Shown: positions 3,583 to 58,232 of the stretch, piece by piece
Position numbering within the stretch: the first letter of the stretch is position 1
Layout of the letters: every line of letters begins with the position of its first letter
Source of the DNA: a virus
Virus record (IMG/VR): IMGVR_UViG_3300030105_002498
Coordinates: 29,331 to 93,330 of that record
Reading direction: 5' to 3' (one strand)
DNA length: 64,000 bases
Made by a program: the position numbers and the translations under genes
The notes under the pieces: model-generated
What the model was told of the DNA's origin: nothing
Databases searched by the model: none
Seen by the model: the letters and a program-made list of their open reading frames with translations, nothing else

Positions 3583-3604
3583 TTTCAAATAAAAATGTAA
3601 CATC

Positions 3605-13355: not shown

Positions 13356-14813
13356 ATGGCAACTCTTGGTAGTAAGCTAATTACTAAAGAAATGGAATGG
13401 AGTGCGAATATGACAGAGCAATCTCACTTAGGGAGAGCATTGTTAGCAAAGCCTCATAAATTCATAGACCAGATGGACCAGTTGTTTTCTGCACAAAACT
13501 ACTACTCGGATAATCCGATGTCTAGTATGTTGATGGGTAACAAGAAAACAGAGGAAACTATCGCTGCTACAGAATGGGAGTGGGATTTGAAAGGTGCAAA
13601 TACAAGACCATTAGTTGTCTTGGAAAATATTTTACCTGCTTCAGATACGACTCCTGGTAAGTTCCGAAGAACTTTCCGAATTAAATTGGATGAGAATTGG
13701 TATGTACCTGGTGATGTAATCACTCCTGGAACATCTAATAAAAGATTCCAATGTCGAATTATGGATGAAGTAGTCCGTCATGGTGATGGATGGATTTATA
13801 CAGTTCGTCTAATGTCTGATGACCCTGCTTTATCTCTCCCAGTTAAGTACTTAGCTCCTGGGACACAATGGGCAAAACTGTACTCTCAATACGAAGAGGC
13901 AGCAGAACAATCAGGTAGTACTCAATACAGCTTACCTATTTCTCTTAGAAATAAGATGGGTAAGTTTAGAAAGAAGTACAAAGTAACTGATTACGCTTCA
14001 ACAGAAGTACTTGCAGTAAAAGTACCAGATAGCAAAGGGAAATACCATGATTCATGGATTCGCTATGCAGAGGTAGAATACTGGCAACAATGGTACAGAG
14101 AGTTGGAAAGAGGGTACTGGTACTCAAGAAGTACTGATACAGTTATTGGAGCAAATGGTAGACCAGTAAGGTCAGGTCCAGGAATCCAACAACAATTGGA
14201 AGATTCTCATATTCACAGATATTCTCACTTAACTACTAAGTTAATTGAAGAGTACTTGATGGACATTTTCTACTCACGAGTTAAGCCAGGTAAAGGTCGT
14301 TCTATCAAAGGATTTACAGGTGAATATGGTATGCTTGCATTCCATAGAGCTGTACAAGACTGGATGAACAAATCTGGTTTCATTAAGAATTTCGAGATAT
14401 TCTCAAACAAAGTTGGCTCTCCTTACCATACTAATGCGTTAGAAGGTGGATTCCAATTTGTAAAATACAACATGGCAAATGGTACTAGTCTTGAATTAGT
14501 CCACAATCCATTGTATGATGACAGAGAAATCAATTTCGAGATTGACCCTATCACAGGTTTCCCTGTAGAGTCACAACGAATCACTTTCATGGACTTCTCT
14601 GGAGAAGGGAATAAGTCTAATATGAAGTTAATCAATAAAAAAGATGGATTTGCGTTCACTTATATTGAAGGACTTTATGGACCTTACGGACCTAAGAAAG
14701 GTGGAAGTTCTGCTCACTCAGGTTCTTACTATGAAATGCACGTTGAGAAATCTTGTGGACTTCACATTCACGATGTTACAAGATGTGGTGAATTGATTCT
14801 TTCAAGAAACTAA
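13356..14813 (+). CDS. Major capsid protein
   Basis: A 485-residue capsid protein, expected HK97 fold. The N-terminal region (FSAQNYYSDNPMSSMLMG, then TEWEWDLKGANTRPLVVLEN) is strongly reminiscent of crAss-like major capsid proteins, whose usual length is close to 490. Position after the acidic scaffold-like gene and the strong terminator directly after the stop fit a highly expressed capsid gene. No cleavage site for a prohead protease is evident. Confidence 0.9.
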   Translation: MATLGSKLITKEMEWSANMTEQSHLGRALLAKPHKFIDQMDQLFSAQNYYSDNPMSSMLMGNKKTEETIAATEWEWDLKGANTRPLVVLENILPASDTTPGKFRRTFRIKLDENWYVPGDVITPGTSNKRFQCRIMDEVVRHGDGWIYTVRLMSDDPALSLPVKYLAPGTQWAKLYSQYEEAAEQSGSTQYSLPISLRNKMGKFRKKYKVTDYASTEVLAVKVPDSKGKYHDSWIRYAEVEYWQQWYRELERGYWYSRSTDTVIGANGRPVRSGPGIQQQLEDSHIHRYSHLTTKLIEEYLMDIFYSRVKPGKGRSIKGFTGEYGMLAFHRAVQDWMNKSGFIKNFEIFSNKVGSPYHTNALEGGFQFVKYNMANGTSLELVHNPLYDDREINFEIDPITGFPVESQRITFMDFSGEGNKSNMKLINKKDGFAFTYIEGLYGPYGPKKGGSSAHSGSYYEMHVEKSCGLHIHDVTRCGELILSRN

Positions 14814-39514: not shown

Positions 39515-42500
39515 ATGAGCAAAGGTAGAAAAATTAATATAAGTGTAGAAGAAGCTTTTGGAATTCCTGCCCAGAAAAAAGGACCAGACACTATCAACCC
39601 AACTACTGACCCACTTAAAAAAAGTAATGGAGGTCCTATTTCAGAAAGTTTGTCTCCTGAAAGTTTAAGAATACTAGAAGAAACTAAAGGTGCAAAAGCA
39701 GGTGGTGCTGCTATTGATAAAGGTTCTGAATTATTTAGATTACAAGGAGGAACTTTTAGTGTAGACGAAGCTATCAACTATAATGCTAACCTAGCTGCTA
39801 ACCAATCTTTTGGAGAGCAAGTAGGGAATGTGACTATGAATGCTATACCAACTTTTGCAGCAGGTTTCTTAGACAACTTTAACTATGATATACCTGACAT
39901 GGTAGGCTTAGTTAGTGGACAAGAAAAAGAATATGGTAACTGGCTCACAGATATAACTCAGTCTTTAAGAAAGGCTGGGGATGCCCCTGTTTATCAAGAA
40001 GGAGATTCTTTAGCTGACCCAACTTACTGGGCAAAACAAGCACAGAACTTTTCTTATACAGCAGGATTGATAGCAGGTACAATGGTAGAACAAGCAGCTA
40101 TGACAGCTCTTACTGTTGAGAGTTTGGGTGCTGCTGCTCCTCTGCAAGCTTTAAGTTTAGGTAACAAAGCTAAACTATTTAAGAATGCTGCTTTTGGTAC
40201 ATGGAAAGGTGTACAAGAAGGATATATTAATGCTCTTGAAACTTTTGAAGGAACAAAGAAGAAGTATGAAGGATTAGGTTACTCACAAGAAGAGGCTATC
40301 AAGTATGCTTCCGAGGCTGCTTCTATTGGATATAAGATGGAGACTGGACCATTAATGGTTTTAAATGCTCTACAATTTGGAGCAATAGGAAAACTAAATC
40401 CTTTTGGGAAAAGTGCAGGAGTTAACACAGGTTTTGGAGGTGCAGTAGAATCAGCACTCTCTCCAGCTTTTAGTAGAATTGCATACAAGCCTCTATCTAA
40501 ATTGGTAGCAGGTGGAGTTAACATTGGTTCTGAATCTGTTGAGGAGATTATTCAAACTGGTGTAGGTAGATATGCTGAACACAGACAACTAAGCAAAACT
40601 AAAGATACCTTCACAGATTTTGAATTTTGGAATAATGAAATGAGAGACTCTGCCATTGGTGGAGCTTTTGGTGGTGGTGTGTTTACTGTTGCAGGGAGTG
40701 TCTCAGATAAGATTCAAGATAAGAAGACTGGTGCAGTTCAAGGAAGAATTTATGATAACTTTATAACAAATAATAAGAAAAGAACTGAGCAACATACTAT
40801 TGAATTATCTCAAGCTATTCAAGAAGGTGATGTAGAAAAGCAAAGAAATATAGAGTTCAAGATGCAGAGAGAATCTGTATTTGAAGCTTTAAAGTTAGAT
40901 TACACTTTGAAAAAAGAAACTGCTTTTGACAGTCACATTAAAACTTTAGAAGGAGCTTTAGAAGCTATTCAGAATAAAGACGTAGAAGCACTAAAGAAAT
41001 ATGGGTTACTTGATGAAGCTTCAATAAAGAATGCTTTGCAAAGTTTCCCAAGACTTATTGCTCAATCAAATAAAATAAAAGAGACTTTCTTAAAGAACTA
41101 TGAGAAGAGTGAAGACTTTACAGTTGCAGCTACTCTTACAGATAGTCAGATGGTTAGTGACAACTCTATCCGTTACATAGAAGAAAACAAAAAAAGTGTA
41201 GAAGAATTTAAAAGAAAAAACTTCTCAGGTCTATCTCCTCAAGGTCAAGTTCACATGAACAACCTTTTAAGAAAAGAAGAGATTATGATACAAGCTGGAA
41301 TCAATAGTATTTCAGCAGCAGAGAGAACAGAATTAGAGAGTTTAGAAGAGATGATTAATACTGGAGATGAAGGCTTATCAGAACTTGATAGGAATTTATT
41401 CAAGACTTTAGATGCTAGTGAAATTCTAAACACTTACGTTGAAAACGAGAATCTTAAAAAAGTTCAGGGGACAGCTACAGAAAGAATAGAAGAGTGGAGC
41501 AAACCTGGAAAAGCAAAAGAAGTTAAAGTAAATGAAGCTGTACAAGAAATTAAGAAAGCTACATCTAAAGAGGCTTTGGTGGAAGTTAAAGAAACTTTAG
41601 AGAAAGAAAATGCTTTGACTCCTAAAGTTGAACAAGTCATTAATGCTAAGATAGTTGAAGCTGAAGTAAATGCTACTGTTCCTCCTCAAGAAGAGGGAGA
41701 GAACTTTGCAGAGATAGAAAGAGAAACAGGTCCTCCTCCGAATCCTGTAAGAGAAGAAACTGCTCAAGAGATTAATGCAATCTTTGAACAACTTGAAGCT
41801 GAATATGCAGAGACGGATAACTTTACTACGTTGTCTGATGAACAATTATTTGAGCCTGTTGATGTATCTGATATGTCAGATGGTCTTAGAAGTAAAATGC
41901 AAAAGGCTGTAGGTCAATACTATGAGAACTTGAGGACTGAAAAAGATAACCCAAGTTTCTCTGACTTCATTCAAGACTTTATTAAGCATAATGCTAAAGA
42001 CTCAACAGATAGAATCTTTAATGCTTTAGTAGAAGGTTGGAAAGCTAATGGTTTACAAGAAGCTGACTATGCACAAGTGTATGCAAATATCTTTAAGAAT
42101 AGAAAAGATATTGCTTTTGATATTCTTGGTATTGCAAATGAGATAATTGGAGAAGCTCCAACTGTAACTGAAGTTGCTAGTGAAACTAAAAAGGTTTTAG
42201 AAGAAGTTCAAAAAGAGGCTGCACCAACTGTAGCTCTTAATACAAATAATGAACCTGTATTAAAAGATACAACTCCTTTCAGAACTTCACAAGCAACTTT
42301 AAAGGCTGCTCATTTATCTATGCCTTATAATAGAGAGTTTGTAACTGATGAAGATGGTAATGTAACCGTTGTTGATACTGATGACTCTACAGAATTGCTG
42401 ACTGGCAATGATGTAAATTCAATGAAGCTTTTGAATCCTGATTTATTTAATCCAGGTACAGTACTATCTGTAAGCATCCCACCTAACTATATGAATATGA

Positions 42501-45500
42501 AAGTATCTGTATGGGAAGATGATATTACTAAGGGTAGGTCAATTACTTTTGGAGAGTGGATGGCAAAGAACAATGTGACTAAAGGTTCTCCAGAGTGGAT
42601 TGCTAAAGTTCCAATGGTAGCTACTGACCAAGATGGGGAAAATGTCTTTATGATGCATGATACTGATTGGTATAATCCTGTAAATGTTGGATTAAAAGAT
42701 AGTCCCGCAGACCAGTTTAGCATTATCCAAGAAGCTAACTTAAATCTTATGAATGTAAGAAACAAGTTACAGGATGTTGGACAAAGTTTTGAGATTACTA
42801 TTACAGTTAAAAGACCTGGGACTTGGAAGCTAGTGGATAAAAATTCACCTCCAATAACAATTAACCAAGCTAATCCACAAACTAAATTTGCTATTGCTAA
42901 TAAAGATGGGGACTTAGTTATAGAAGCTAATGAACTCTTAGAAAAAGATGATGTCAACTTATTAAATACTAAGAAAGACTTTAAAGATGGTCACACTTAC
43001 CAAATCAGGAGAGGTGTAAATAAGAATGAAGTTATTGCTTTACAAGTGTTTAGAAATAAATTATCTGAGGATGCTGTAAATACTGTCAATGGCTTAGTTG
43101 AAGCTTACTTATACCAAAAGGATGAAGGTGGTTCTGTATCTGACTTTGCTAAAACTAAAGAGGTTAGAGAACAAGTACTTACTGCTACAGGTCTTGATGT
43201 ATTTAATATGAGAGATTTTGAAACTCTTATTAATATGTATATCCCAACTTTAAGAGGTAAGTTTGGAAGTCCTGCTAGTGTATCTATAGAGGTAGAAAAG
43301 AACCCTAGAATTCCAAATGGAACTCCATACTTTGTTGTACAGAAAGGAGCTTTTGTATTTGGAGTTAAAGGGCAAGAAATTGTTCCAGGTAAGAAAGCAT
43401 ACTATATTCATCCAATGAAAATGAAGGATGAAGGTGGACCTGCACAAATGGCATTTAGACTTAGAAAGTTTACAGCTATGTTACCTAATGCAACACAAAA
43501 CATATCTAAAGAAGGTTTATCTACAGATAGAAATACAGTTGTTATTGATAAAGATAAAAATGTATTCCCTAAAGAATCTTATAGAGAATTCTTAAAGAAT
43601 ACTTTAACCACTACAGTTAAATCTTTCAATGTAGGGACAAAAGATAAACCAGTTTATGCTACTTATGTACAACCTGTAATTAATTTTGAAGTAACTGGTG
43701 AGTCTAAAGTAGATGTAGCTAATCCTACTCCTGCTAAAGTGGAAGAGATTAAAGTGAAGATGTCAGAGGCTAAAAAAGCAAACCTATCTTTAGAACAAAA
43801 AGTAGGTTGGAATGAAGGTTTTTCAGAATCGGAAATAGAATTTGCATTAAATAGTGATAACGTAGAAATTAAAGAGACTGTAGATAATCAAGGAAATTCT
43901 GAAATTAAAATTACTGAGAATGGAAATTATGTAGGGTCAATAACTTTATCTCTTGAAATAGAAGGGTATTTAGGAGTTAGCATAACAGTTGGAGTTGAGT
44001 CTCAAGGAAAAGGTATTTCAAAACATTTATATAATTTAGCTCTTGCAAGTGTTAAAGAAAAAGGAGGGAAAGGTTTATATTCTATAGACCAAGTATTAAA
44101 AACTCCTGAAAAAAGTAAAGCAAGTAGAGCAAATTTTAAAACTTCTCTTTTAGGAAAAGAAGATTCTAAGATAAGAAAAACATTACAATCAGTTTTAATT
44201 AATGAATTAAAAGGTGAAAAAGCTGTAGTTACTTTGATTACAGATGTTTCAGATTCTTTTGCAAAAAAAGGAGCAATTCAATATAAAACAGAAACTACTG
44301 AAGCTCAAGAAAGAGCTGCATCTGAGCAAGCTGAAGAAGCTATAGAAAGACAAGTTGAAGAAGGTCAAGCAGCTTTTATAGCAAATGAAGAAAGAAATAG
44401 AAGAGAAGCTGAAGATGTAGAGATGGCTGCTTTAACTAAAAAAGAACAAGCTATTGTACAAAGTTCTCCAGAGAAGTTTGAGACTGTTGAACCATTAAAA
44501 ATTGAAGAAATTACTTCTGATGTTTCTCCTGTTGACAACAATCAAGAACTTATAAAAATAGGAACTAAAACAGTATTAAATAGTAATGAAGAATTAACTA
44601 GAATTGGGAAAGATAATAAAAGACTTTCTAAAATAGCTAAGTTAATGGCTGCAAGAATTTCTAGCCTTACAAACAGGATAGTTAATGCAGATTTAGATAG
44701 TGCAGGTATTGCAATGACTAATTTTTCACAAGACTCTATTGACGAAAATGATAATTTTTTAGAAGGTTCTATTTTAACAGATGTTGCTATTGATGAAGAA
44801 GCAATTCAAACTGTAGTTTCAGCAAGAGAAGATTTAGCTGATTTAAGGGATGAAACAATAGTTCACGAAGAAATCCACAGATACACAAAAGCTTTATATG
44901 TTATAAAAGAAGCTGCTGGAGGAGGGAGTTTAACTGACTTTGGTTTTACTGAAGCAGAAGATACTTTTATGGCAGAAATTGAAGAACTTTATCAACAATA
45001 TTTAGAAACAAACAACACTAATTCTGATTTTGCACAACCTAATACTAGCATAGAAGAGTTTATAACTTACGGTTTAACTAACGCTGCTTTTATAGCTGAA
45101 ATAGATGGAATTAAAGTAGAAAATACTAGCATATTAGATAAGTTAATTGCTGCTTTATCTAAATTATTTGGAGATAAAATTTCCATTAAGCAAGCATTAG
45201 ATAAGTCTTTTGAAAATTACATGAAAGCAGAGACTCACTTAGAAAAAATAGCTGTTCAAACAGAATATTTTACAGCTAAAGAATCTGTTCCTGTTACTAA
45301 TCCTCCTGCTGTAAAAAGTGCAGCAGAAATTCAAAATCTTAAAGACTCTATTGCAATGTTGTTACACTTAGGAGTTTCTGAAAATGCTCCAGAGATGCAA
45401 ATTCTTAGAGATGAGTTAGGTATAGAATATCTTGACGAACCAACAATTATTACTTCTGAAGACATTGCTAAAATGAAGCAAGATGTTACAGGTGTACCTG

Positions 45501-48500
45501 GATTAACAATAATACAGGATTTCCAAGTGACAGATTATGTTTTCAATGAAGTCTCAAAGAGAATAGACTTTAAGTTTGGAACTAAGGTAGATAAGAATGA
45601 GATTTTAAAAGATGTCAAATCTTCTTACTTTGATTTACTCGGACCAAAGCAAAAAAATAACATGACTACTATTGCCAACTTAGAAAAGATGGTAGTAAAT
45701 AGTCCTGGCTTAGCTCCAGTAGTTGAGAGAATGAAAAAAGAAGTTCAAGTTTATACTACTATTCGAGATAACTGGAAAATGATTGAGAAAGGTGGTTTAG
45801 ATAAAGTGAGAAAATTCACAGGTATTAAGGAGACTAATGACACTATGGAAGTGTTGAATGAAAATGGGGAAGTTGAAAAGAACTATTCTAAGACTTCACT
45901 TGAAGAAGGAGGTAAAGGAACAGCTTCTTATAGATTAAAAAGATTTCTTGCAGGTATCAAAGAAGTAGATGCCAATGGAACTCCAAAGACTGGATTCCTT
46001 GGAGTACCAACTTATGTAGGTTTTGATGTAGCTTATGCAACAATTGAATCTGTATTATCTTCTCCTGTTGAGGTTGATTCTAGTTTTCAAGATATGATAG
46101 TAAGACTTGAAGAGAATGTAAAGAATCATAAATGGTTAAGACAAGTTATTGAGCAATTAAAAAGTGCTGATGAGCAAATTCAAAATGAACTTGTGTATAA
46201 CTTTACTAGACACACATTGTCTATGAAGTTTGTTATGTTCTCTAAGAATCGAGATGGTACATACAGTTTGAAAGTCTATGACACAAACTCTACAGAAATT
46301 ACAAGAGTTATTAGAACTCAATGGGATAGTAACTTAAAGAATAGTCCACTAGTATATGCTGCTAATGGTACACATAAGATCAATAAGGATAGAGCTAAGT
46401 TCTTACTAGAGCAATTTGAAGCTTTCCAATCAAGTATTGTTCCTGCAACTGCTGGGAATGTTGCTACTGTTGGAGCTACTAATGAACAGTTAAAAACTTG
46501 GTTAGAAGATTTTGGTATTGTATTATCAGAGGACACACTTAATGAGATGAGAACTAAGCAAGTGACTTACATGACTAAGGATGGTCAAGCCACTATGAAC
46601 TTTACTAAGTTGTTTAAGAATTCTTCTAATAGTGATGGAGTTTTTGGCTTGTTAGCTAACTACTTACAAAACATTATTGAGCAAGATGATACAACTTTAG
46701 ATGAGAACCCACAGAATCACCCTTTTGATAATGCAAATAATGTACTTAAAACTTTAGCTAAGATTGAAAGTAAGTACAGCTTAAATGCTACTACTAACTC
46801 CTTTAGAGATGGTGGTAAATCTATCTATGGTTTCACAGCAACTAAGCTTGCAACAGATTTATCTAAGAAGTTAAAAGCTACAGACTCAGAATACAGAGCA
46901 CAGCTTTTAGAGAAGTCTTTTAACAAGCATTCTCACATACTTAAACTACTTAACTCAAGTGAATCTTTTAGAGATAAGATGCAGATTGACCACTTAGGTA
47001 TTACTGCAATGAAAGAATTAGGTAAAGGAACTTTTGGAGATAATTCTCTTACAGGTTTATCTAACTCTGACCATGAGTTAACTAAGCTTGGTTTATTCCA
47101 GGATAGAGAACAAGGAGAACTTAAAGAGTTCTTTGATGAAGCTAAGTTTATTGGACTAAGAATGGCAAGAATGTTCTTCCCTACTATGTCAGATAAGTCT
47201 CAGATGTTAATGTTGCAAACAGCAGTATTAGATTTGAATGCCAAGCACTTCACAATAGTTGATGGTGTAGCTACTATTAAAGAACAAATAGCAGAAGCTA
47301 TGTATTCTCAAATGGTTAGACCTGAATTGGAAAGACTTACTAGTTTTGCTGCTAGAAATGAACCTACTAATATTAAAGGTTATGATATGGCTGCTAGAAT
47401 GTTCTTGATGATTCCAGAGCTTAATAACATGGTAGATGCAGACACAGGACTAAGAGTGATTGCACTAATGAATCAACAGCCTAGTGTCTACAATATGGAA
47501 TGGTTTGAAGAGAAAATTAGACCTCAAGCAAAAGAAATAATTACTAAGCTTGTTGCTAATGACTCTGCTAAGAAAATAAAAGAGTGGGAAGTAGCTGGAT
47601 TTATTGAAACAAAAAATGGAGTTAAGTCTACTAAGTTTTTAAATCAAAAGTACTTTAACAATATAAGTGCAAGTACTGTTGAGGAAAAGATTCAAGTAGC
47701 TGCAAATGATTTTGTTATTAACAGTTTAATAAGTAATGCTAACATCCACATGGTTTTTTCAGGAGATATTGCATCTTACTCACAAGATAAGATCAAGCAA
47801 TACTTTGAAGATGGAAACCCTATAGCTCCTGTTGCAGCATTAAAAGATGGAACTATTGTAGGTGATAAAGCTTATGCTATGGTTAGTAGGGACATAATTA
47901 GTGTGAATCTCGGTAAGAGACTAGCATTATTATTAGCTCCAGGTAATAAGATAGCCAATTCAAAAGGAGATAAATACACACAGATTTTCTTAAATGATTT
48001 CTTTGATATTACTTCTAATGTTCCAACCCTTGTGGAGTTGTTCTATGGGAAAGAAGAGAGTGTGAAAGCAGCTAAGATTGTCTCAGATTACAATGCAACA
48101 AAAGATGGTGCAGCTAGAAAGAGATTAGCAAAACAACTTGCTGCTGATTATCCTCAACTTGAAGACTACTTTGATATTGAGTCTACAGATGCACAAGAGT
48201 ACACAACTCTTTCAGAACATATTAATGTACTTTGGAGACAAGGTAGACTACACTCAACACAGTATGAAGCTATGAAAGCAAAAGCTGAGAGTGGTCAGAA
48301 CTTAACTTATGAGGAGTTAAGATTAGTCTTCCAACCTATTAAGCCAGTTCATACTGGATTCAGAAATGAGCCAGGGATGGACATGATGAGAATGATGTAC
48401 ATTAAGTCTTCTTCTTATCCTTTGATTCCACAACTTACTAAAGGTTTGGAATTGGACAAATTAAGATTGATGCTTGAAGACCAAGAGAAAAAGACTGGTA

Positions 48501-51500
48501 AAAAAGTTAGAGCATCTTATCAAAGTGCAAATAAAGTTGGAGCTAACAACAAAGCAATATCTATCTTCAACCCTGATGGGACATACAATACTGAGTTATC
48601 TGATTTAGAAATTAGTGAGGCTTCTCTTGTATTAGACAGAGACAACTTTAGAATCCAACAAGATGTACCTTTTAAATCTGCAAAAACTAGTACAGATAAA
48701 GTTTCATTAGGAACTCAAACTTTAAAGTTACTTTTTGGAGATGGTATGTTAGATATTGATGACTTTGAAATGGATGGAGTTAAAATGTCAGGTAAGGAAT
48801 TATATGACAAATTTGTGAATGACTATGATGGTTATATCAATCTAAAGAAAGAATCTCTATTCAAACAACTTGGAGTGGATAAGAGAGGTCAACCTATTGA
48901 TGTAGAGAAGACTATGGACAAACTTCAAAAGATGTTGAAGATTGAAGCTGAAGAGAGAGGTTACCCAAAACAAGATATTGAAGCATTAAAAATTGTGCCA
49001 AAATTAGATAAGGATGGTAACATTATTGATGTGCAATTCAGTATTCCACTATGGTTATCTCCTAATTCAAATAGGTATGAAGCACTATTGAATGCTATTG
49101 TGACAACTAGACTTGTGAATGTAAAACTTCCAGGTAGTGCTTATGTATTAGGAACTGAGGCAGGTTACAAAATGCAAGAAGATTTTAGTGGTATTAACAA
49201 ATCAAACATTGTATTTACTTCTGAGTGGCAAGGAGAACTTAAAGCTTACGAAAAGGGAAAATTAGCTCAGATATTTTTACCATCTAAGTTCAGAGACAAC
49301 GAAGGAAACTTAATTGACTTAATGTCAGATAAGTATAGCTATAGAGATGAAGATGGGTTGTTGAAGTTAAGAGAAGATATGATTGACCCTAAATTATTAG
49401 AGAGGACTTCATTTAGAATTCCTACTTCAGCTCACGTATCTATGTCTCAAGTAGTAATTGCAGGTTTCTTACCAACAGAGGTGGGTGATTTGATGATTCT
49501 ACCTAAAAACTTTACTAAGCAAAAGGGTATTGATTTTGATGTTGATAAGGAGACAACTTACCACTTGCACACTTACATGGATGCAGATGGAAAGATGAGA
49601 GCCTTTGATGAAGATGCAAGACAAGAGACTCTTAAAAAGTTTGATTCTCAACATAATGATGATACTGCTGAAGCAAAATTGATAAGAGAAATCTTTGGGG
49701 ATGATGTAAACTTCCTTGATGATGAGTTTGAACCTGGAGAGAAATTAGATAAGATTAATGATAAGCTTAAAGAGAAAATCTTTGAGAATGAACTTGTTAA
49801 AATACATGCTGCTGTTTTATCTAACCATAATCCAGAAGTCCAAAGAAAGATAAACAAAGTTTTATCTATGGACTTTGCCACTAAGCAAGCTGAATTGATT
49901 CAAAAAGAATTGAAAGGAGACCAGGATGACACTTACTTTACTATGTTATCAGACAGTTACCACAAGTCTAAAGTAGAACTTGGGGCAGCAGGGAAATTAG
50001 GTATTGGAGTTTACTCTAACTATGTAGTATTCCACTCTATGATTCAACAGTCTAGTAAGCCAATACAATTAAAGACTAGAGATGGAGAGGGTGGTCTAAT
50101 TCCACTCAAAGTTACTATTGGAAAACAAACTTCTAATGGTATGTTAGGTGGAAAGAATTCTCTTGCTCAAGGTGTTAATAAAAGAAGTATTGCAGAAGTG
50201 TTTGCGGAGAGACAAAATACTGCAACAGATAATGAGAAAGAACAGATTATGGGTAGAGTTAATGTAAATGAAGTTACTATTAATGTAGATTCATTGCTAT
50301 CTGCTCTTGGTTTTGATAAAGACACACTTGATGATGGGTCAGCAGTTTCATTACCATACTTATTCTTATCTCAACCAATTATTAGAGACTTTGTAGAAGC
50401 TTTGAGAAAAACTAACTCTAATACTACAGAGTTTTCTAGTGCTGCAAGAGAGATAGTTATTAATGAACTAAAACAAAAGTATATTAGTGAGACTGATTAT
50501 AATGCAGAGCTTGTTCCTCAAATGATGACAGGACAAACTCTATTCAATAACTTGAATACTCCTAGTAACATGATTCAACTAGAAGTTTTAGAAATGTTTT
50601 TAGGTCTTGATAAGTATGCAAAAAATATTGCCCTACTTCAAGGTAGAATGAATATTACTGGAAGTGGACTAGGAAAATCTTTCTTTGAAACTATTGACAA
50701 ACACTATGCTTTGCAGAATATTATTAAAGATAATGAAGCAAATAAGAGTGGAATCATTATTGGTAATGCAAGTAACTTGATTGGAGATTATATTAAGAAA
50801 GATAGTATTGAACCAGAACATGTAGGAAGAGATTTTGCTAGTGAAGGTTACGTTGATTTAGGTAGCTACTGGATTAAACCAAACAATCCAATTGGCTCTA
50901 TGTTAGTCAATTCAGTTGATACTGGATATAATTTATGGAAAGATTTCTTCCCTTTTGATGATTACTTTATTAAGCAAGTGATGGATGAAATTAGAAAAGA
51001 AGTTTCAAGTGAGGATGCTAGTTCTACTAAAGTTATTGAAACTCAACAGAACATTTTCAAAGAGATGAAGAAGTTCTTTGTGACTTCACAATTACTAGAG
51101 GTTATTAATGGTGACCCTGGCGTAGAAAGACAAAGATTATTCATTGATACTGAAGGTAAACAATCTTTACCTAATTACATGAATGAAGTTGTTAGAGGTA
51201 CAAGCATATTGAAGTCTAACAAGTTGTTGTCAAGATTCCAATACACTATTAACAAGAATGGTTTACCATCTCTTATTAAGTTTGATAATACTAAAGGAGA
51301 GAACTTCGATGAAGACTACTTATATTTGTCTCTAATTGAATTGATGGAAGCTAAAGAAGCTTTACCTGATTTTCAAGGAAAGCCTTATGATACAGAGATG
51401 TTAGCAAAAGATTTAATTGCTTACAACTACCTTGAAGGAGGTATTCAAGAAGCTGTCCAGTTTTCTAAATACATTTCTATATCTTATTTAAACACAATTA

Positions 51501-53551
51501 AGTTTGCTGGATTTACTAGAGAATGGAATGGTAAGTTTAGACCAGGAGTTTTCAACAAAATTTTAGGAATTAGACAAGATGATAAGCCAAGTGTCTTTAC
51601 TAGACAGTATGTGCAGAACACTCCACAAAAGTTGACCAAGGTTGACCCTAAGACTCAGATCATGGATGCTGCTTATACAGGTAATAACAAAGACTTAGGA
51701 AACTTAGTGGAATTTGCTTTGAATGAAAAAGCTTTGACTGAAGTTGAACAAGCTACATTTGCTAAAGTAAACTTTGTAACTATCTATAACTCTACGACAA
51801 AAAAAGGGTTGAAGAAGTTTCAAGTGTATGAAAGAAGTAATGATAAGTTTAGAAGAATTTCTACATTAGGTGTATTTGGAATGGCAGAATATTCTATTGG
51901 ACAAGAGAGCATGGGTAGTGTAGTTAATGACAGTTTCAGACATGCTTCACCACCTGCTAAAGCTATTGTTAAGAAAGTAGCTCAACCAAAAGTTAACAAT
52001 GCTATTGATTTGGATAATATGTCAGGGAAAGAAATTATAGCAACTGTAGCTAACTTTGATTTTGTAGAAAACCCACACTTAAAAGCTGTAGCTCAAGCTA
52101 TCATGCCTTACTTACCAGACAGTCTTGAGTTTAAGACAGATGATTTAGTAGTAAATGGAGTAAGAGTTGCAAGAGGTAGATACAATGTAGGAGAGAATCT
52201 TATTACTATTGATAAATTATACTTAGCTACTGCCACTTCAGAAGATTTAGCTAAGACTATATTACATGAAACTATTCATGCCTTAACAGCTAAGTATATC
52301 AACCAACACATTGATATAAAAACTGGAGAGTTCTTGAGTGAAAATCCACCAAAAGAGATTGTAGACTTAGTGTTACTATTTAATGAAACAAAAAGAAAGC
52401 TTGGACCAGAAATTGAAGCTTATGCTAAAAAGAGACAAGATCAACTAGCTGGAAGAACTACTGAAGGAACTACAGAGAGAGAAAGAACTGTAGCTTATGG
52501 AGGAACTAATATTAAGGAATTTGTAACTCTTGTAATGACAGAACCTAATTTCCAAAAAGAAATGATGGACACTATCTACAAGCAGTCTGACAAAAACTTA
52601 CTAGAGAAGTTAGCTGATATTGTTAAGAACATCTTACATACAGTATTAGGAGAAAGCTTTAATAAAGATGGAGTTACTTCACAAGGAATTTTAGCTTCTA
52701 TGCAAATTATTGAAAGTCAGTATGCAGGTGAAATTGATATTGATACAACTGCTGCTGAAGCTAATAGGCTAATGGACTTAATGGTAGAGCAATTGGCTCA
52801 AGGAGGTCCACCAGCTTTTAACCCAGATGAGTTTGAGAACAAACCACCTGAAGTTACTTTTGAACCTACAGATTTTATTTGGAGATTCAATAAGAAGAAG
52901 AACTTGAACTATGTAGTTGAGGGTAATTTTCCTTTAAGCATGAACCTTGTAGATAAAGTTAAGGCAGGAGAGCAAAGTATCACTATAAGAAATCCTAAGT
53001 ATAAAAACTCAGAGGGTATCTATAATGTTGATGGAACAAACCTTGCAATTAGTAGAGTTGGTAACAAACCAGTTACTATTGGAGAGATGAAAGCTAAAGG
53101 TTATACTGAAGCTGAGATTCTTAAAGCTTTTAAAGGAGGTACTATAGCTGATATTAGAGAACAATCTGTTAAAGATTGGTTCAATGGTATAGGAACTAAG
53201 AATATATATTTTGTCAAAGATGTGACGAATAAACCAGAAGTCTTGCTAGAGCCATCAGAATATGTTATCTTTGACGAAAATCAAGTATCTATTGTGCTAC
53301 ATGCAAATGAAATGCACTTTATTAAAACTAAAGATGGTAAATTTTATATGACTTCTGAAAGCCAAGATTTAAGGCAAATAACTAAGGAAACTTTTGACTT
53401 AGCTTCTAATGACCCTGCTTTTGATACCTTTGGAATTTTAGACAAAGAAGAAAGACTTAGCTTTATAGGAGGACTAAACAGTTTGACTAGAAGTATGTAC
53501 CAAGGTGAATTAGGGACACCTTTATTTAGAATACCTTTTAAATGTAATTAA
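39515..53551 (+). CDS. Giant virion RNA polymerase polypeptide (crAss-type)
   Basis: A 4678-residue protein from one uninterrupted 14-kb frame. GIDFDVDKE (catalytic D3340, D3342, D3344), preceded by FRIPTSAHVSMSQVVIAGFL, is the DFDxD metal-binding loop of the double-psi beta-barrel of YonO-like/crAss virion RNA polymerases, injected to transcribe early genes. Other parts: Ala/Gly-rich, membrane-active-looking stretches in residues 150-400; a GNAT-like motif (V-x-x-Q1497-G-K-G1500-I-S); zincin motif HEEIH (1784-1788) and another, HETIH (4251-4255), each followed by an E/K-E-F segment; and an ASCH-like segment near 4470-4530 (EQSITIR). Relatives are often split into several genes or are shorter. 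Confidence 0.85.
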   Translation: MSKGRKINISVEEAFGIPAQKKGPDTINPTTDPLKKSNGGPISESLSPESLRILEETKGAKAGGAAIDKGSELFRLQGGTFSVDEAINYNANLAANQSFGEQVGNVTMNAIPTFAAGFLDNFNYDIPDMVGLVSGQEKEYGNWLTDITQSLRKAGDAPVYQEGDSLADPTYWAKQAQNFSYTAGLIAGTMVEQAAMTALTVESLGAAAPLQALSLGNKAKLFKNAAFGTWKGVQEGYINALETFEGTKKKYEGLGYSQEEAIKYASEAASIGYKMETGPLMVLNALQFGAIGKLNPFGKSAGVNTGFGGAVESALSPAFSRIAYKPLSKLVAGGVNIGSESVEEIIQTGVGRYAEHRQLSKTKDTFTDFEFWNNEMRDSAIGGAFGGGVFTVAGSVSDKIQDKKTGAVQGRIYDNFITNNKKRTEQHTIELSQAIQEGDVEKQRNIEFKMQRESVFEALKLDYTLKKETAFDSHIKTLEGALEAIQNKDVEALKKYGLLDEASIKNALQSFPRLIAQSNKIKETFLKNYEKSEDFTVAATLTDSQMVSDNSIRYIEENKKSVEEFKRKNFSGLSPQGQVHMNNLLRKEEIMIQAGINSISAAERTELESLEEMINTGDEGLSELDRNLFKTLDASEILNTYVENENLKKVQGTATERIEEWSKPGKAKEVKVNEAVQEIKKATSKEALVEVKETLEKENALTPKVEQVINAKIVEAEVNATVPPQEEGENFAEIERETGPPPNPVREETAQEINAIFEQLEAEYAETDNFTTLSDEQLFEPVDVSDMSDGLRSKMQKAVGQYYENLRTEKDNPSFSDFIQDFIKHNAKDSTDRIFNALVEGWKANGLQEADYAQVYANIFKNRKDIAFDILGIANEIIGEAPTVTEVASETKKVLEEVQKEAAPTVALNTNNEPVLKDTTPFRTSQATLKAAHLSMPYNREFVTDEDGNVTVVDTDDSTELLTGNDVNSMKLLNPDLFNPGTVLSVSIPPNYMNMKVSVWEDDITKGRSITFGEWMAKNNVTKGSPEWIAKVPMVATDQDGENVFMMHDTDWYNPVNVGLKDSPADQFSIIQEANLNLMNVRNKLQDVGQSFEITITVKRPGTWKLVDKNSPPITINQANPQTKFAIANKDGDLVIEANELLEKDDVNLLNTKKDFKDGHTYQIRRGVNKNEVIALQVFRNKLSEDAVNTVNGLVEAYLYQKDEGGSVSDFAKTKEVREQVLTATGLDVFNMRDFETLINMYIPTLRGKFGSPASVSIEVEKNPRIPNGTPYFVVQKGAFVFGVKGQEIVPGKKAYYIHPMKMKDEGGPAQMAFRLRKFTAMLPNATQNISKEGLSTDRNTVVIDKDKNVFPKESYREFLKNTLTTTVKSFNVGTKDKPVYATYVQPVINFEVTGESKVDVANPTPAKVEEIKVKMSEAKKANLSLEQKVGWNEGFSESEIEFALNSDNVEIKETVDNQGNSEIKITENGNYVGSITLSLEIEGYLGVSITVGVESQGKGISKHLYNLALASVKEKGGKGLYSIDQVLKTPEKSKASRANFKTSLLGKEDSKIRKTLQSVLINELKGEKAVVTLITDVSDSFAKKGAIQYKTETTEAQERAASEQAEEAIERQVEEGQAAFIANEERNRREAEDVEMAALTKKEQAIVQSSPEKFETVEPLKIEEITSDVSPVDNNQELIKIGTKTVLNSNEELTRIGKDNKRLSKIAKLMAARISSLTNRIVNADLDSAGIAMTNFSQDSIDENDNFLEGSILTDVAIDEEAIQTVVSAREDLADLRDETIVHEEIHRYTKALYVIKEAAGGGSLTDFGFTEAEDTFMAEIEELYQQYLETNNTNSDFAQPNTSIEEFITYGLTNAAFIAEIDGIKVENTSILDKLIAALSKLFGDKISIKQALDKSFENYMKAETHLEKIAVQTEYFTAKESVPVTNPPAVKSAAEIQNLKDSIAMLLHLGVSENAPEMQILRDELGIEYLDEPTIITSEDIAKMKQDVTGVPGLTIIQDFQVTDYVFNEVSKRIDFKFGTKVDKNEILKDVKSSYFDLLGPKQKNNMTTIANLEKMVVNSPGLAPVVERMKKEVQVYTTIRDNWKMIEKGGLDKVRKFTGIKETNDTMEVLNENGEVEKNYSKTSLEEGGKGTASYRLKRFLAGIKEVDANGTPKTGFLGVPTYVGFDVAYATIESVLSSPVEVDSSFQDMIVRLEENVKNHKWLRQVIEQLKSADEQIQNELVYNFTRHTLSMKFVMFSKNRDGTYSLKVYDTNSTEITRVIRTQWDSNLKNSPLVYAANGTHKINKDRAKFLLEQFEAFQSSIVPATAGNVATVGATNEQLKTWLEDFGIVLSEDTLNEMRTKQVTYMTKDGQATMNFTKLFKNSSNSDGVFGLLANYLQNIIEQDDTTLDENPQNHPFDNANNVLKTLAKIESKYSLNATTNSFRDGGKSIYGFTATKLATDLSKKLKATDSEYRAQLLEKSFNKHSHILKLLNSSESFRDKMQIDHLGITAMKELGKGTFGDNSLTGLSNSDHELTKLGLFQDREQGELKEFFDEAKFIGLRMARMFFPTMSDKSQMLMLQTAVLDLNAKHFTIVDGVATIKEQIAEAMYSQMVRPELERLTSFAARNEPTNIKGYDMAARMFLMIPELNNMVDADTGLRVIALMNQQPSVYNMEWFEEKIRPQAKEIITKLVANDSAKKIKEWEVAGFIETKNGVKSTKFLNQKYFNNISASTVEEKIQVAANDFVINSLISNANIHMVFSGDIASYSQDKIKQYFEDGNPIAPVAALKDGTIVGDKAYAMVSRDIISVNLGKRLALLLAPGNKIANSKGDKYTQIFLNDFFDITSNVPTLVELFYGKEESVKAAKIVSDYNATKDGAARKRLAKQLAADYPQLEDYFDIESTDAQEYTTLSEHINVLWRQGRLHSTQYEAMKAKAESGQNLTYEELRLVFQPIKPVHTGFRNEPGMDMMRMMYIKSSSYPLIPQLTKGLELDKLRLMLEDQEKKTGKKVRASYQSANKVGANNKAISIFNPDGTYNTELSDLEISEASLVLDRDNFRIQQDVPFKSAKTSTDKVSLGTQTLKLLFGDGMLDIDDFEMDGVKMSGKELYDKFVNDYDGYINLKKESLFKQLGVDKRGQPIDVEKTMDKLQKMLKIEAEERGYPKQDIEALKIVPKLDKDGNIIDVQFSIPLWLSPNSNRYEALLNAIVTTRLVNVKLPGSAYVLGTEAGYKMQEDFSGINKSNIVFTSEWQGELKAYEKGKLAQIFLPSKFRDNEGNLIDLMSDKYSYRDEDGLLKLREDMIDPKLLERTSFRIPTSAHVSMSQVVIAGFLPTEVGDLMILPKNFTKQKGIDFDVDKETTYHLHTYMDADGKMRAFDEDARQETLKKFDSQHNDDTAEAKLIREIFGDDVNFLDDEFEPGEKLDKINDKLKEKIFENELVKIHAAVLSNHNPEVQRKINKVLSMDFATKQAELIQKELKGDQDDTYFTMLSDSYHKSKVELGAAGKLGIGVYSNYVVFHSMIQQSSKPIQLKTRDGEGGLIPLKVTIGKQTSNGMLGGKNSLAQGVNKRSIAEVFAERQNTATDNEKEQIMGRVNVNEVTINVDSLLSALGFDKDTLDDGSAVSLPYLFLSQPIIRDFVEALRKTNSNTTEFSSAAREIVINELKQKYISETDYNAELVPQMMTGQTLFNNLNTPSNMIQLEVLEMFLGLDKYAKNIALLQGRMNITGSGLGKSFFETIDKHYALQNIIKDNEANKSGIIIGNASNLIGDYIKKDSIEPEHVGRDFASEGYVDLGSYWIKPNNPIGSMLVNSVDTGYNLWKDFFPFDDYFIKQVMDEIRKEVSSEDASSTKVIETQQNIFKEMKKFFVTSQLLEVINGDPGVERQRLFIDTEGKQSLPNYMNEVVRGTSILKSNKLLSRFQYTINKNGLPSLIKFDNTKGENFDEDYLYLSLIELMEAKEALPDFQGKPYDTEMLAKDLIAYNYLEGGIQEAVQFSKYISISYLNTIKFAGFTREWNGKFRPGVFNKILGIRQDDKPSVFTRQYVQNTPQKLTKVDPKTQIMDAAYTGNNKDLGNLVEFALNEKALTEVEQATFAKVNFVTIYNSTTKKGLKKFQVYERSNDKFRRISTLGVFGMAEYSIGQESMGSVVNDSFRHASPPAKAIVKKVAQPKVNNAIDLDNMSGKEIIATVANFDFVENPHLKAVAQAIMPYLPDSLEFKTDDLVVNGVRVARGRYNVGENLITIDKLYLATATSEDLAKTILHETIHALTAKYINQHIDIKTGEFLSENPPKEIVDLVLLFNETKRKLGPEIEAYAKKRQDQLAGRTTEGTTERERTVAYGGTNIKEFVTLVMTEPNFQKEMMDTIYKQSDKNLLEKLADIVKNILHTVLGESFNKDGVTSQGILASMQIIESQYAGEIDIDTTAAEANRLMDLMVEQLAQGGPPAFNPDEFENKPPEVTFEPTDFIWRFNKKKNLNYVVEGNFPLSMNLVDKVKAGEQSITIRNPKYKNSEGIYNVDGTNLAISRVGNKPVTIGEMKAKGYTEAEILKAFKGGTIADIREQSVKDWFNGIGTKNIYFVKDVTNKPEVLLEPSEYVIFDENQVSIVLHANEMHFIKTKDGKFYMTSESQDLRQITKETFDLASNDPAFDTFGILDKEERLSFIGGLNSLTRSMYQGELGTPLFRIPFKCN

Positions 53552-53555: not shown

Positions 53556-56500
53556 ATGGCTTGTAACAGCAAACAAAATACTATAACACACCTACAAAAA
53601 GTGGGTGTGCTTGATGAATATGGTAGGGTTACTAATCCTTCCAGGTTAGATGCAATTAATGCGCACTACATGACACACATAGCTGACACCTACGGGATTG
53701 TTCCTGAAAGTGGAGTATTGCTAACATCAAGGGAAATAACTAGACAAGACGGGACTTCTCGTAGTAATACGAAGAGTTTCCATGTCCTTGAGACTAATGA
53801 TGCTGCATTTGAGCAGATTAATGAGGCTATTAATGATAACCAAGAGCTTCTTGATGAACCAATTGATTATTTTGAAGAACTTTATGCTCCTAGCAGTCCA
53901 CCACTTGTGACTCCAGCTTATGAAAAATCTATTCAATACAAGAAAAATCTATTGAATAGACTTGAAGGTAGATTAGAAAAAATAAAAGCCGACAAAAGAG
54001 AAGCTTCATCTGACCTAGTTCTATTAAAAGAGTTGATAGCTTTAGAAAATGCTATTGAAGCAAGGATAGAAGGTGTTCATGATTTAGAGATTACAGGATT
54101 AAGGGCAGAGATTATAGATTTAGAAAGTGATCCTCCAATTGCAAAATTTGAGTTCTACGCTGAGAAAGATTTTGAAAGATTGGAAGCTCTAGTAGATTCA
54201 GAAAATCCAGAGGATTTAAAAGAAGCTAGAACTATCATTGACTTCTATAAAGCTATGGGAGATTTTTCTCCTAAAGTTATTCATCCTTTATACAATGAAA
54301 CAAAGGATGTAATGCAGAATGGAAAAATGGTGAAGACTTACTATAATACAGGATTCAATGAAGACTCAGGAGTACTAGTAATTTCCCAGGAGATACAAGA
54401 CAAATTACAAGAGTTGTCACTTAGAGCTGGAGAGAAGGAAAGAAAACTCTATGAAAAAGAAAAACAAGCTATTGTTTCTAATGTAAATCAGAATACAAAA
54501 GTGCAAGGTTTGTATTCTGAAGAATTTACTCATGATGAGTTATTCTTTAAAAATACAGGTCTGAAAGATACACCTTGGATTGATATGTTTTTGATGGACA
54601 TCACCAATGGTATCTTCTCTACTAATGGAATTATTCCACAGGTGATGATGAATAACATTCAGAATGCTTTTGAAGAAAACTTAGTTAAAGCAAAGAGTGT
54701 AGAGAATAGATTGAATGAAATGCAACCACAAGTGGAAGCAGCTTTAAAAGCTCTAGGTTATGATTTAGCTGGTACAGCAGGAGTCTTTGGTCTAACAGGA
54801 GTTTCTTATGACTTGTTTAAAGCAGAAGATTCTAATGGACAATTTAAAGATGGTATAGTCCAAAGATATGATTCTAGTTTTACTGATTCTAAAAGTGGGA
54901 TGTACTATACTTTTAACAGAGATTTTGCAGCAGCTTTAAAAATAGAAGACCCTGCAAAAAAACAAGAAGCAATTAAAGCTGCTTACATAAAGAAAAGAAA
55001 TTGGTTTAAAAAGAATACTATAGTAATTGATGTAAACAGATTAACAGACCTCAATTATCAAAAAGAACTTGAAGATGTTCTTGGACCTCAAGGTTACGTG
55101 GAAGAGATGGCTAAACAAAGTAAATTAATAAGAGACTATGAAGTTAGTTTAGAGATTTACAAAGATCAAGTTATTGCAGAAGGAGGAGCATCAACTATTC
55201 AAGCTAATAAAATAGAAAGGTGGACAAAAAGAAATAGTCCTTATGAAGCTACAACTAGTTACTATGATAATACTCCTATTACAATAGGAGCAAAAACACT
55301 TGAGTCTAGTATGAAATACAATTCTGCTATACCTAGAAGAACAAAAGTATTACTAAGAGCTGGTCCTCATGGACTATCTGCTGCTGCAACCCCAGATGAC
55401 ACAGGTTTCTATGATAAGAAATTTGAAACTATTGAGAATAATCCAGTATTGAAAGAGTTTCATAACTTGACAATGGAAGTGCAACAAATGATAACTGAAG
55501 TAATGCCAATTGATGTGAGAAGAAAATTCTCTGCCAACTCTTTACCTTCATTAGAAAAGAACTTAATTGAGATATTAACTTCACCAAATATTGCATTTCT
55601 AGCTAAGATTTCAAAAGCTTATAGACACTTGATTGATAAAATCATGGGAGCTTTTGGTATGAATATCCAGAGTAGTTTAAGTAATGCCACTATTGACCCA
55701 ATTACAGGTAAACCTGAGTACAAAGTTAATTCGGAATTTCTAAAATCAAATAAAGAAGAAATTAATAAAAGATACCAAATTGAGATACTAAGATTGAAGA
55801 GAGCAATAGGAATGCGTTTAACTGCAACTATTACAGATAGAACAACTTTTGATTTAACTACTGCTAGTCCTGATGCAATAGACATTATAGCTGAAGCTTT
55901 AGGAGTAGACTCAACACTTGCAGCTATAAAAGCTAGAATTCCAGGAGACATGAAAGTTGCTGAAATAGGTAAGATGTTAAGAAGTGGTATCACTCATCAA
56001 GTGGTACAAGAAAAATCTTTTGATTTACCTAAGATTTTAAAACTGTACTCATACATGACTATGGAGTATGCTGCTAGACAAGAAGCTTTACCTTTAATGG
56101 AGATTATGAAAAGTCACTATGAAGAGATTAAAGACCCAGCACTTACTAATACAGGAGCATCTATGACTAATGTTGCAAACCAAGAAACTACATTGGAGGG
56201 GGTTAGAGTTGGAGCTATAAGACAAATGAACTCTTGGTTTGATAGAGTTATTCTTGGAGAATATGGAAGTAAAAATGAACTTGGTGACACCACTTTAAAA
56301 AGAAATATTAAATTAGGCTTCTCAGAAGAAGACCAAACTAATATTTTTAAGAGTATGGTGAGCACTACTATAACAGGTAGAATATTAAATACCCAAGAAA
56401 AGATTATAGCTAAGAAACTACCTGCTTTGATAATTGAAGCTCAATCTTTAGTAGACACAGCACCTAACCCTGAACTTCAAAAACAAGCTCAAAAAGTGTT

Positions 56501-58232
56501 GAGTAATTTAGTATACACTCAAGACAATCTTGGAAAGCATTTCTCAGTAACTAAAATGTTTGATGCAATATTCAACTTTATTAGATTGAAAGGTCTTGGT
56601 TGGAATTTATCATCTTCTGTAACAAACTTTATGGAGGGTCAGATAGCTAACATAACTATAGCTGCAACTGGTGATTACTTTACACCAGAGAATATTTACA
56701 GAGCAAATGGCATTATTAAAGGTTCATTTATGAAAACTTTAGCAATGGGTAAGTACTCAACTAATGGGGCAAAACTTACTAGGACTTTGATGGACAGATA
56801 CAGAGTGTTGCAAGATGCTTCTAATGAATTGCAGAAGGCATCAAGTAAGTCAGCTTTCTCCAAGTTTCAGAACTTAGACCCTTATGAAATTACAAGAAGA
56901 ACAGAGTACTTGAATCAAGGACCACTTATGATTGCTATCTTAATGGACCAAAAAATAACTGGTACAGATGGTACAGTAAGTAATGTATGGGATGCTATGA
57001 ATCCTGATGGAACTTTAAAAGACAATTTTAGAAGTGAGAGTAATATTGCTAACTGGGAAAATGCTGATGGACAACAGTACAATGATTTTGCTACACACTT
57101 AAAAAAGACTATTGTAAATGCTCATGGTGATTATGATGAGTTGAGAGGAAACATGGCAACAGAGACAATTTCTGGTAAAGCTTTATTAATGTTTAAGAGA
57201 TGGATGGGAAAACAATTCTATCAAAGATTTGCAATGGTGGAACAACCTGACCTTGAGGTTGGGATTAAAGAATACAAAGGTAGGTATTTATCACACACTA
57301 AGTCTACAGGATTTACTCATGGAGCAATCATTGGATTCTCTGCTTTTGGGTTACTTGGAGCAGGTCCATTAGGCTTTTTAATTGGAGGTGCTGCTGGATT
57401 TGCAACAGCACAAGGCTTCGGAGCAAACACAGGAATTAATTTTTTAAAGGAATTAGCTTTCACTTCTAAAGAATTATTCTTAAATTTGGTAAGAATTCCT
57501 ATAAATAACACAATGGGAAGAGAAGTTGTGACTGATTTAGGCTTAAATAAGCTGTTTGTTAAAGCTGGATTACCTTCTACTTATGCAAGTTTAAAGTTAG
57601 AGGAGAGAGATATGAGGAACTATAAAGCTAATATGATAGATATGTCTATGACTTTAGCTTGGATGGGACTTATGTTATTTACTAAAGCTTTACTTTGGGA
57701 TGATGAAGATGATTCTGAAGACCCTAGAAGAAAAGCTCACAATTTACTTGCAAATAGATTCATGCAATTAGCAGGTGCAGCAACAATGTACACTAATCCT
57801 GTTGAAGCTTGGGGGAGTACAGTAGGTAATTTACCTGTTATTACTTTTTTCACAGATGTAGGAAAGCTTGCTAACGCAGCTTCAGGTGCATTTAGTGATG
57901 ATGATATTTTAGCAAGTGGACCTAATGCAGGTCAATCTAAGTTTGGAAACCAATTTGAAAAAACTTTCTATCCTGGAGTCGTTAAAGGAGGAGTTGGATT
58001 TGAGAAAGCCATGAATAGACAATTTAGACCTCACGCTTTTGATTCATGGTTTCATAGTGATGAGAAGAAAGCTAAAAAAGTGACTAAGGCTATCAGAGCA
58101 CAAGCACTTAATGGTCATCTTTTAGATGGAATGAGTAAAGAGGACGCTAAAAAAGCAGTTAAGAAAAAATACAGATATAAAAAGAAGGATGAGACTTACT
58201 TAGACCTTCTAAAAGTTTATAAGAATTTCTAG
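53556..58232 (+). CDS. Large internal virion protein, polymerase-associated
   Basis: A 1558-residue protein starting four bases after the polymerase gene. A long coiled coil spans about residues 128-200 (KKNLLNRLEGRLEKIKADKR). The middle is helical and charged. Near residue 1255 is a Gly/Ala-rich hydrophobic hairpin (HGAIIGFSAFGLLGAGPLGF, LIGGAAGFATAQGFGANTG) and near 1370 another (MSMTLAWMGLMLFTKALLW), so part may insert into membranes. The tail is strongly basic (KAVKKKYRYKKKDET). It is likely a co-injected cargo protein forming a channel or partnering with the polymerase. No catalytic motif is seen. Confidence 0.65.
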   Translation: MACNSKQNTITHLQKVGVLDEYGRVTNPSRLDAINAHYMTHIADTYGIVPESGVLLTSREITRQDGTSRSNTKSFHVLETNDAAFEQINEAINDNQELLDEPIDYFEELYAPSSPPLVTPAYEKSIQYKKNLLNRLEGRLEKIKADKREASSDLVLLKELIALENAIEARIEGVHDLEITGLRAEIIDLESDPPIAKFEFYAEKDFERLEALVDSENPEDLKEARTIIDFYKAMGDFSPKVIHPLYNETKDVMQNGKMVKTYYNTGFNEDSGVLVISQEIQDKLQELSLRAGEKERKLYEKEKQAIVSNVNQNTKVQGLYSEEFTHDELFFKNTGLKDTPWIDMFLMDITNGIFSTNGIIPQVMMNNIQNAFEENLVKAKSVENRLNEMQPQVEAALKALGYDLAGTAGVFGLTGVSYDLFKAEDSNGQFKDGIVQRYDSSFTDSKSGMYYTFNRDFAAALKIEDPAKKQEAIKAAYIKKRNWFKKNTIVIDVNRLTDLNYQKELEDVLGPQGYVEEMAKQSKLIRDYEVSLEIYKDQVIAEGGASTIQANKIERWTKRNSPYEATTSYYDNTPITIGAKTLESSMKYNSAIPRRTKVLLRAGPHGLSAAATPDDTGFYDKKFETIENNPVLKEFHNLTMEVQQMITEVMPIDVRRKFSANSLPSLEKNLIEILTSPNIAFLAKISKAYRHLIDKIMGAFGMNIQSSLSNATIDPITGKPEYKVNSEFLKSNKEEINKRYQIEILRLKRAIGMRLTATITDRTTFDLTTASPDAIDIIAEALGVDSTLAAIKARIPGDMKVAEIGKMLRSGITHQVVQEKSFDLPKILKLYSYMTMEYAARQEALPLMEIMKSHYEEIKDPALTNTGASMTNVANQETTLEGVRVGAIRQMNSWFDRVILGEYGSKNELGDTTLKRNIKLGFSEEDQTNIFKSMVSTTITGRILNTQEKIIAKKLPALIIEAQSLVDTAPNPELQKQAQKVLSNLVYTQDNLGKHFSVTKMFDAIFNFIRLKGLGWNLSSSVTNFMEGQIANITIAATGDYFTPENIYRANGIIKGSFMKTLAMGKYSTNGAKLTRTLMDRYRVLQDASNELQKASSKSAFSKFQNLDPYEITRRTEYLNQGPLMIAILMDQKITGTDGTVSNVWDAMNPDGTLKDNFRSESNIANWENADGQQYNDFATHLKKTIVNAHGDYDELRGNMATETISGKALLMFKRWMGKQFYQRFAMVEQPDLEVGIKEYKGRYLSHTKSTGFTHGAIIGFSAFGLLGAGPLGFLIGGAAGFATAQGFGANTGINFLKELAFTSKELFLNLVRIPINNTMGREVVTDLGLNKLFVKAGLPSTYASLKLEERDMRNYKANMIDMSMTLAWMGLMLFTKALLWDDEDDSEDPRRKAHNLLANRFMQLAGAATMYTNPVEAWGSTVGNLPVITFFTDVGKLANAASGAFSDDDILASGPNAGQSKFGNQFEKTFYPGVVKGGVGFEKAMNRQFRPHAFDSWFHSDEKKAKKVTKAIRAQALNGHLLDGMSKEDAKKAVKKKYRYKKKDETYLDLLKVYKNF

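Follow-up and report, generated by a model that had tools for sequence, protein, structure and literature searches.

Judged from its homology, the giant open reading frame studied here encodes a chain that is the virion RNA polymerase (RNAP) of a crassvirus from the clade of Flavobacterium phage Fpv3. Across relatives of this chain, cysteines are kept at the boundaries of the injected proteins, are absent where these proteins are fused, and are excluded elsewhere in most lineages. We consider it likely that the frame is an injected crassvirus RNAP chain and that the cysteine pairs at the junctions are inter-chain disulfides, which join the proteins called here 'first', RNAP and 'last' as one thread.

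The window, i.e., the whole 64-kb stretch of DNA that was analysed, is the final part of a 93.3-kb virus record. It encodes the crassvirus major capsid protein, ring proteins 1 and 2 and the muzzle protein, and was on these markers assigned to the Crassvirales. Among annotated phages, its nearest relatives are Fpv1-4 and FPSV of Flavobacterium (Fipvunavirus), with 34-35% identity over 1997-4399, a lineage that lies outside the five gut crAss-like clades of Yutin et al. (PMC7886860). The features discussed below are collected in Table 1. By position and profile, the 'last' protein is also the counterpart of phi14:2 gp65 and crAss001 gp49. Relatives of the giant chain have been detected as virion proteins by mass spectrometry, and the giant RNAP is probably delivered into the host by injection, as a product of a crAss-like phage. 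Three tRNA genes (Tyr, Met, Thr) are located close to the start of the window, at 2686-2929.

Table 1. Features of the 64-kb window; positions are counted from the first nucleotide of the window.
Feature	Position	Strand	Basis or remark
Crassvirus major capsid protein	13356..14813	+	Pfam Crass_capsid, E=2.7e-151
Crassvirus muzzle protein	29877..35393	+	Pfam crAss_MUZ, E=8.9e-53
Cys-free protein, 585 aa	35424..37181	+	By analogy, matches crassvirus cargo protein gp45/gp46 in position
Cys-free protein, 774 aa	37181..39505	+	Crassvirus cargo protein counterpart by position
Giant chain of 4678 aa uniting 'first' protein and virion RNAP	39515..53551	+	PHROG 16227 virion structural protein
'First' region, aa 1-1990, ends approximate	39515..45484	+	Separate protein in split relatives, e.g., 1740-aa ORF of L010
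Predicted GNAT module, aa 1414-1618	43754..44368	+	L077 homologue, fold matches
Probable zincin-1, aa 1669-1886; HEEIH 1784-1788 at 44864-44878	44519..45172	+	Zincin-2 profile; low-confidence model
RNAP core, aa 2881-3747	48155..50755	+	Homologous to phi14:2 gp66 / PDB 6VR4
Catalytic loop DFDVD, aa 3340-3344	49532..49546	+	Motif and conservation
Zincin-2, aa 4140-4405; HETIH 4251-4255 at 52265-52279	51932..52729	+	Conservation, model
C-terminal segment formerly called ASCH-like	52772..53260	+	Unsupported
Codon of C4677, sole Cys of the chain, C-end half of junction pair	53543..53545	+
'Last' protein of 1558 aa with a single Cys (C3)	53556..58232	+	Counterpart of Fpv3 gp33
Codon of C3 of 'last' protein, N-end half of junction pair	53562..53564	+

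The initial annotation of this DNA, made from the sequence alone, had described one 14-kb frame with a DFDVD loop at D3340-D3344 and had read it as a crAss-type virion RNAP. This was borne out. The region 39515-53551 is one uninterrupted frame of 4678 codons, and a phmmer comparison with PDB 6VR4 gave E=3.7e-13 over aa 2881-3747, the alignment spanning the polymerase core. The DxDxD catalytic loop that characterizes crAss-type virion RNAPs is located within this homologous core, and D3340, D3342, D3344 and K3345 are unchanged in all 11 relatives. The expected number of chance occurrences in the chain is about 0.05 for DFDxD and about 0.04 for HExxH. Matches in the window analysis to the Pfam families VAPB_antitox and Toxin_ToxA, as well as HA2-like matches in the PDB, were below the cut-off and were rejected as chance. 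In one relative, a 580-aa insert within the RNAP region (L007:13679-15436) shows a possible nucleotidyltransferase motif with unconvincing family matches. As the inserts of L007 and L010 sit in or near the RNAP core, inteins were considered; for the L007 insert this was rejected, no intein or homing endonuclease family being matched.

Two HExxH motifs had also been noted, and both are present. The one at 4251 belongs, on solid grounds, to a domain of the zincin metallopeptidase family: H4251, E4252, H4255, Y4328, E4335 and F4336 are invariant in 13/13 sequences, and the motif and a downstream acidic ligand lie on a conserved fold. The AlphaFold model of this domain is good (pLDDT 82.5); its top 12 Foldseek matches are all small metallopeptidases, with weak E-values (0.3-1.4). 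The motif at 1784 stood as claimed, and its domain is likely to be a divergent copy of that family, in view of a weak match of the zincin-2 profile to aa 1669-1886 (12.9 bits vs at most 5.2 in 300 shuffles) and a low-confidence model. It was also compared with the zincin of crAss001 gp47, and this assignment was rejected, as a profile of 46 segments of that type gave no match at 1784. Among the loci, zincins occupy either of two chain positions and seldom both (2 of the 98 loci without an N-end Cys).

The presence of a GNAT acetyltransferase at about 1414-1618, proposed from an acyl-CoA-binding motif, is supported by sequence and model comparisons. The motif reads QGKGIS, with S at the last position instead of the G/A of [QR]xxGx[GA]. 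The segment is missing in close relatives and is 48% identical to part of the 'first' protein of the distant locus L077, and this homologue clears the Pfam GNAT cut-off (E=2.2e-6). The segment's top 50 Foldseek matches are all GNATs, the whole model being poor, which is consistent with an acyl-CoA motif placed on the beta-alpha fold of this family. The same module (L077:4652-5269) is thus common to the window and a distant crassvirus lineage, which suggests module exchange among injected proteins. On the other hand, the ASCH-like end of the initial annotation had to be abandoned: no Pfam or NCBIfam profile matched the chain end at E<=1, and relatives of the C-terminal segment were found neither in the PDB nor in any of the loci.

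Homology to 6VR4, conservation and fold matches therefore support the proposed fusion of a crAss-type virion RNAP with a zincin and a GNAT. Since it combines several enzymatic domains that are not related to each other, the giant chain resembles polyvalent proteins in its domain content. These are injected chains that combine N4-type RNAPs, zincin peptidases and GNATs (Iyer 2017, PMC5512222), and the transcription proteins of crassviruses have been described as large and multidomain (PMC7886860); the statement that such domain content was not described was therefore too strong. Nor is the single chain a special feature, since relatives split the same content into two, three or four proteins, and the protein boundaries in the transcription block are known to differ among close relatives, as in the zeta group (PMC7886860). 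Fusion is one of several equivalent states, every junction in the relatives bearing a cysteine pair. Lineage-specific modules vary among the relatives, examples being the L007 insert and the C-end of the RNAP chain of L005. The latter (L005:17486-20758) is extended by a circularly permuted YpsA/SLOG domain (cpYpsA), A1S_2505 and an SF1 helicase, and here one chain, which is probably injected, carries both a polymerase and a helicase.

The giant chain contains one cysteine, C4677, among its 4678 residues, where about 45 would be expected from the neighbouring genes (P ~6e-19). The next gene (53556-58232) likewise has a single cysteine, C3, in 1558 residues. This pattern went unnoticed in the earlier reading of the DNA. 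It recurs in cultured phages. In Fpv3, the only cysteine of gp32 is C4286 (position -2) and gp33 has C3 and one more at 1461. The three proteins of phi14:2 have C1797, the final residue (gp67), C3 and C2179 (gp66), and C3 (gp65). Those of crAss001, in which the gp47 gene lies on the opposite strand, have C2339 (gp47), C5 and C2404 with one inner cysteine (gp50), and C5 (gp49). In L010, where the chain is divided at a point at which that of the window is fused, there is a cysteine on each side of the split. The Cys-free proteins encoded at 35424-39505 have no end cysteines and would therefore not belong to the thread. No cysteine is found in the virion RNAP of N4 (L257:9524-20026, 3500 aa) or in gp15 and gp16 of T7 (L258:3326-9552; 747 and 1318 aa), and exclusion of cysteine may be general among ejected proteins.

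To examine the rule systematically, the injected set was defined as 'first', RNAP and 'last', and test loci from one viral collection were picked by RNAP homology only and dereplicated to 170. The state of each junction, split or fused, was assigned by profile HMM and synteny, and loci with interrupted RNAP frames were set aside. At the junction between RNAP and 'last', a cysteine is present at the C-end of the RNAP in 119/119 split loci vs 0/10 fused ones. At the junction between 'first' and RNAP, the corresponding numbers for the N-end of the RNAP are 59/59 and 1/40. A separate 'last' protein has an N-end cysteine in 139 of 141 cases, the remaining two being start-codon ambiguities. The outer ends behave in the opposite manner, with a cysteine at the C-end of none of the 143 counted chains that bear 'last' and at the N-end of 0/36 'first' proteins. 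Nine chains fused from end to end (L171, L162, L160, L245, L178, L180, L186, L079 and L080; 4799-5711 aa) are entirely Cys-free.

The end cysteines are found at +3 to +9 and at -1 to -9. Inner cysteines amount to 0.2-0.6 per 1000 aa vs 6.0 in the remaining genes at these loci, and of the other complete genes there, 19/192 have a cysteine within the first 10 aa and 25/192 within the last 10 aa. The rule also holds in 11 loci whose 'first' gene is convergent and on the opposite strand; this excludes translational coupling or gene overlap as its cause. Kin sequences are counted repeatedly in these plain tables, and therefore tree-based contrasts were added. A tree built from 139 RNAP cores shows six or more changes of gene structure for each junction, and the independent split/fused contrasts, five per junction, are all in the expected direction (10/10). 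In three loci an extra chain protein beyond the RNAP has a cysteine at both ends (L116:16426-19527, L113:17891-19672 and L219:14374-16635), and these proteins are candidates for additional injected cargo.

There are exceptions. L113 has a cysteine at +2 of the outer N-end, and the C-end cysteine is located further in, at -24, in L064 and, at -18, in L224. L035, L234 and L248 fit the rule only with an inner ATG, and L049 is without a fitting ATG. Some gut lineages are rich in other cysteines (up to 40; e.g., 23 inner ones in L025) and have kept the end cysteines, so that depletion is not universal. In L130, L133, L217, L233 and L249, which were left out of the junction table, the RNAP frame is broken after the DFD and no cysteine pair is present at the break. 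The breaks are probably introns, frameshifts or assembly errors, and they may be true splits. In both L217 and L249 the frame stops about 122 residues past the DFD motif, and an intron, a frameshift or a split polymerase could produce this.

From the pattern at the junctions we infer a disulfide between the paired cysteines. It also seems probable to us, if somewhat less so, that the early transcription machinery is delivered as a 'protein train', in which gene products are linked by reversible head-to-tail disulfides, fusion is interchangeable with linkage, and reduction in the host releases the parts. In the oxidising virion, the C-end cysteine of the upstream protein and the N-end cysteine of the next one would form an inter-chain disulfide, and 'first', RNAP and 'last' would be stitched head to tail into a single covalent thread, the parts of which would therefore pass the narrow tail jointly and in order. 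Gene fusion and disulfide stitching would be interchangeable routes to such a thread, and the Cys-free, single-chain virion RNAP of N4 agrees with this expectation. The cytoplasm of the host is reducing, and therefore the disulfides would have to form in the particle or after lysis; after delivery, the cytoplasm would reduce the bonds and free the enzymes. As its homologue phi14:2 gp66 suggests, the RNAP would then start early transcription; the zincin may cleave fused parts from each other or target host proteins, and the GNAT would be a swappable passenger module. Three RNAP-associated proteins are present in virions of crAss001, each in an estimated six copies at most, the constrictions of its tail (<50 A) make partial unfolding necessary, and its tails are held by disulfides (PMC10172136). 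A scan of genome contigs for the 'last' protein found nothing.

Since the split/fused rule is compatible with any pairwise chemistry at the junction, the terminal cysteines could instead jointly bind a metal or an Fe-S cluster, or the chains could be joined through them by some unknown kind of ligation. We regard this as unlikely. There is one cysteine per end with no further conserved residue noticed near the ends, and its position floats over the ranges given above, unlike a metal site. Native-chemical-type peptide ligation requires an N-terminal cysteine, whereas the junction cysteine is found at +3 or later.

The chain might also be a polyprotein, a fused toolkit that its own zincin cleaves, in which case cysteine depletion would be general in ejected proteins and the terminal cysteines would have no special role. 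The injected proteins of N4 and T7 are indeed Cys-poor, a zincin is found in the chain of many relatives, and autoproteolysis has been suggested for polyvalent proteins (PMC5512222). However, general depletion predicts zero cysteines at the ends, while they are seen at about 100% of the junction ends and 0% of the outer ends, which makes this explanation improbable. We find it very improbable that the two cysteines are separate signals, that at the C-end for encapsidation or portal binding and that at the N-end for something else, their co-occurrence being incidental. The MPTase-containing region of the N4 virion RNAP is required for packaging (cited in PMC5512222), but the fully fused chains also need packaging and have no cysteine, which contradicts such a signal; moreover, 'last' never has a C-end cysteine, 'first' never an N-end one, and the inserted extra link bears one at both ends. 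Finally, although many junctions, that of the window included, join adjacent genes a few bases apart, a gene-calling artefact or DNA-level signals at overlapping stop and start codons are hardly credible, being refuted by the 11 convergent-strand loci and opposed by L228, whose downstream gene begins MSC past inserted genes (no profile match to 'last'), and by annotated proteins of public phage records that have the pattern.

The proposed disulfide thread can be compared with known systems. The crAss001 proteins gp47, gp50 and gp49 share the terminal cysteines and are virion cargo by mass spectrometry (PMC10172136), but come from three genes, with that of gp47 on the other strand. phi14:2 gp66 with gp67 and gp65 (PDB 6VR4) has the homologous DFDxD core, the order first-RNAP-last and the terminal cysteines; unlike in the window, these are three separate proteins, no GNAT was seen, and the HExxH is in gp65 and not in the RNAP chain. 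Fpv3 is like the window in its fused architecture, its zincin-2, the cysteine at -2 and that at +3 of the next protein, while gp32 has DYDID instead of DFDVD, has neither GNAT nor the first HExxH, and is annotated as a structural protein only. N4 differs from the window in having an RNAP that belongs to the single-subunit T7-like class, and we know of no stitched junctions among polyvalent proteins, N4 included. Polyvalent proteins, among them the N4 virion RNAP with its zincin and without cysteines, are alike in being injected and multidomain with RNAP, zincin and GNAT (PMC5512222). In P23-45, a virion RNAP of the two-barrel type shares a chain of 5 kaa with a peptidase domain, but is fused to the tail tape measure protein (PMC10770324). 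The disulfide networks of phage Milano (PMC10811340) and of the crAss001 tail (PMC10172136) show that disulfides form in phage particles; they stabilise tails, however, and none of them is reported as an end-to-end link between injected proteins. In the literature searched on crassviruses and disulfides we found those of the tail and portal vertex only, and an earlier mention of the end cysteines elsewhere is possible.

The cysteine rule provides a simple guide to real protein ends and to extra cargo links, and the disulfide thread, if true, suggests for engineered protein delivery a coupling with redox release. Crassviruses are the most abundant human gut viruses, and the ordered passage of their folded enzymes of 150-600 kDa past constrictions of <50 A is a puzzle (PMC10172136). 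A disulfide-linked thread would answer it. If true, it would be a new way of building a delivery chain and would help to explain the shifting protein boundaries among close relatives.
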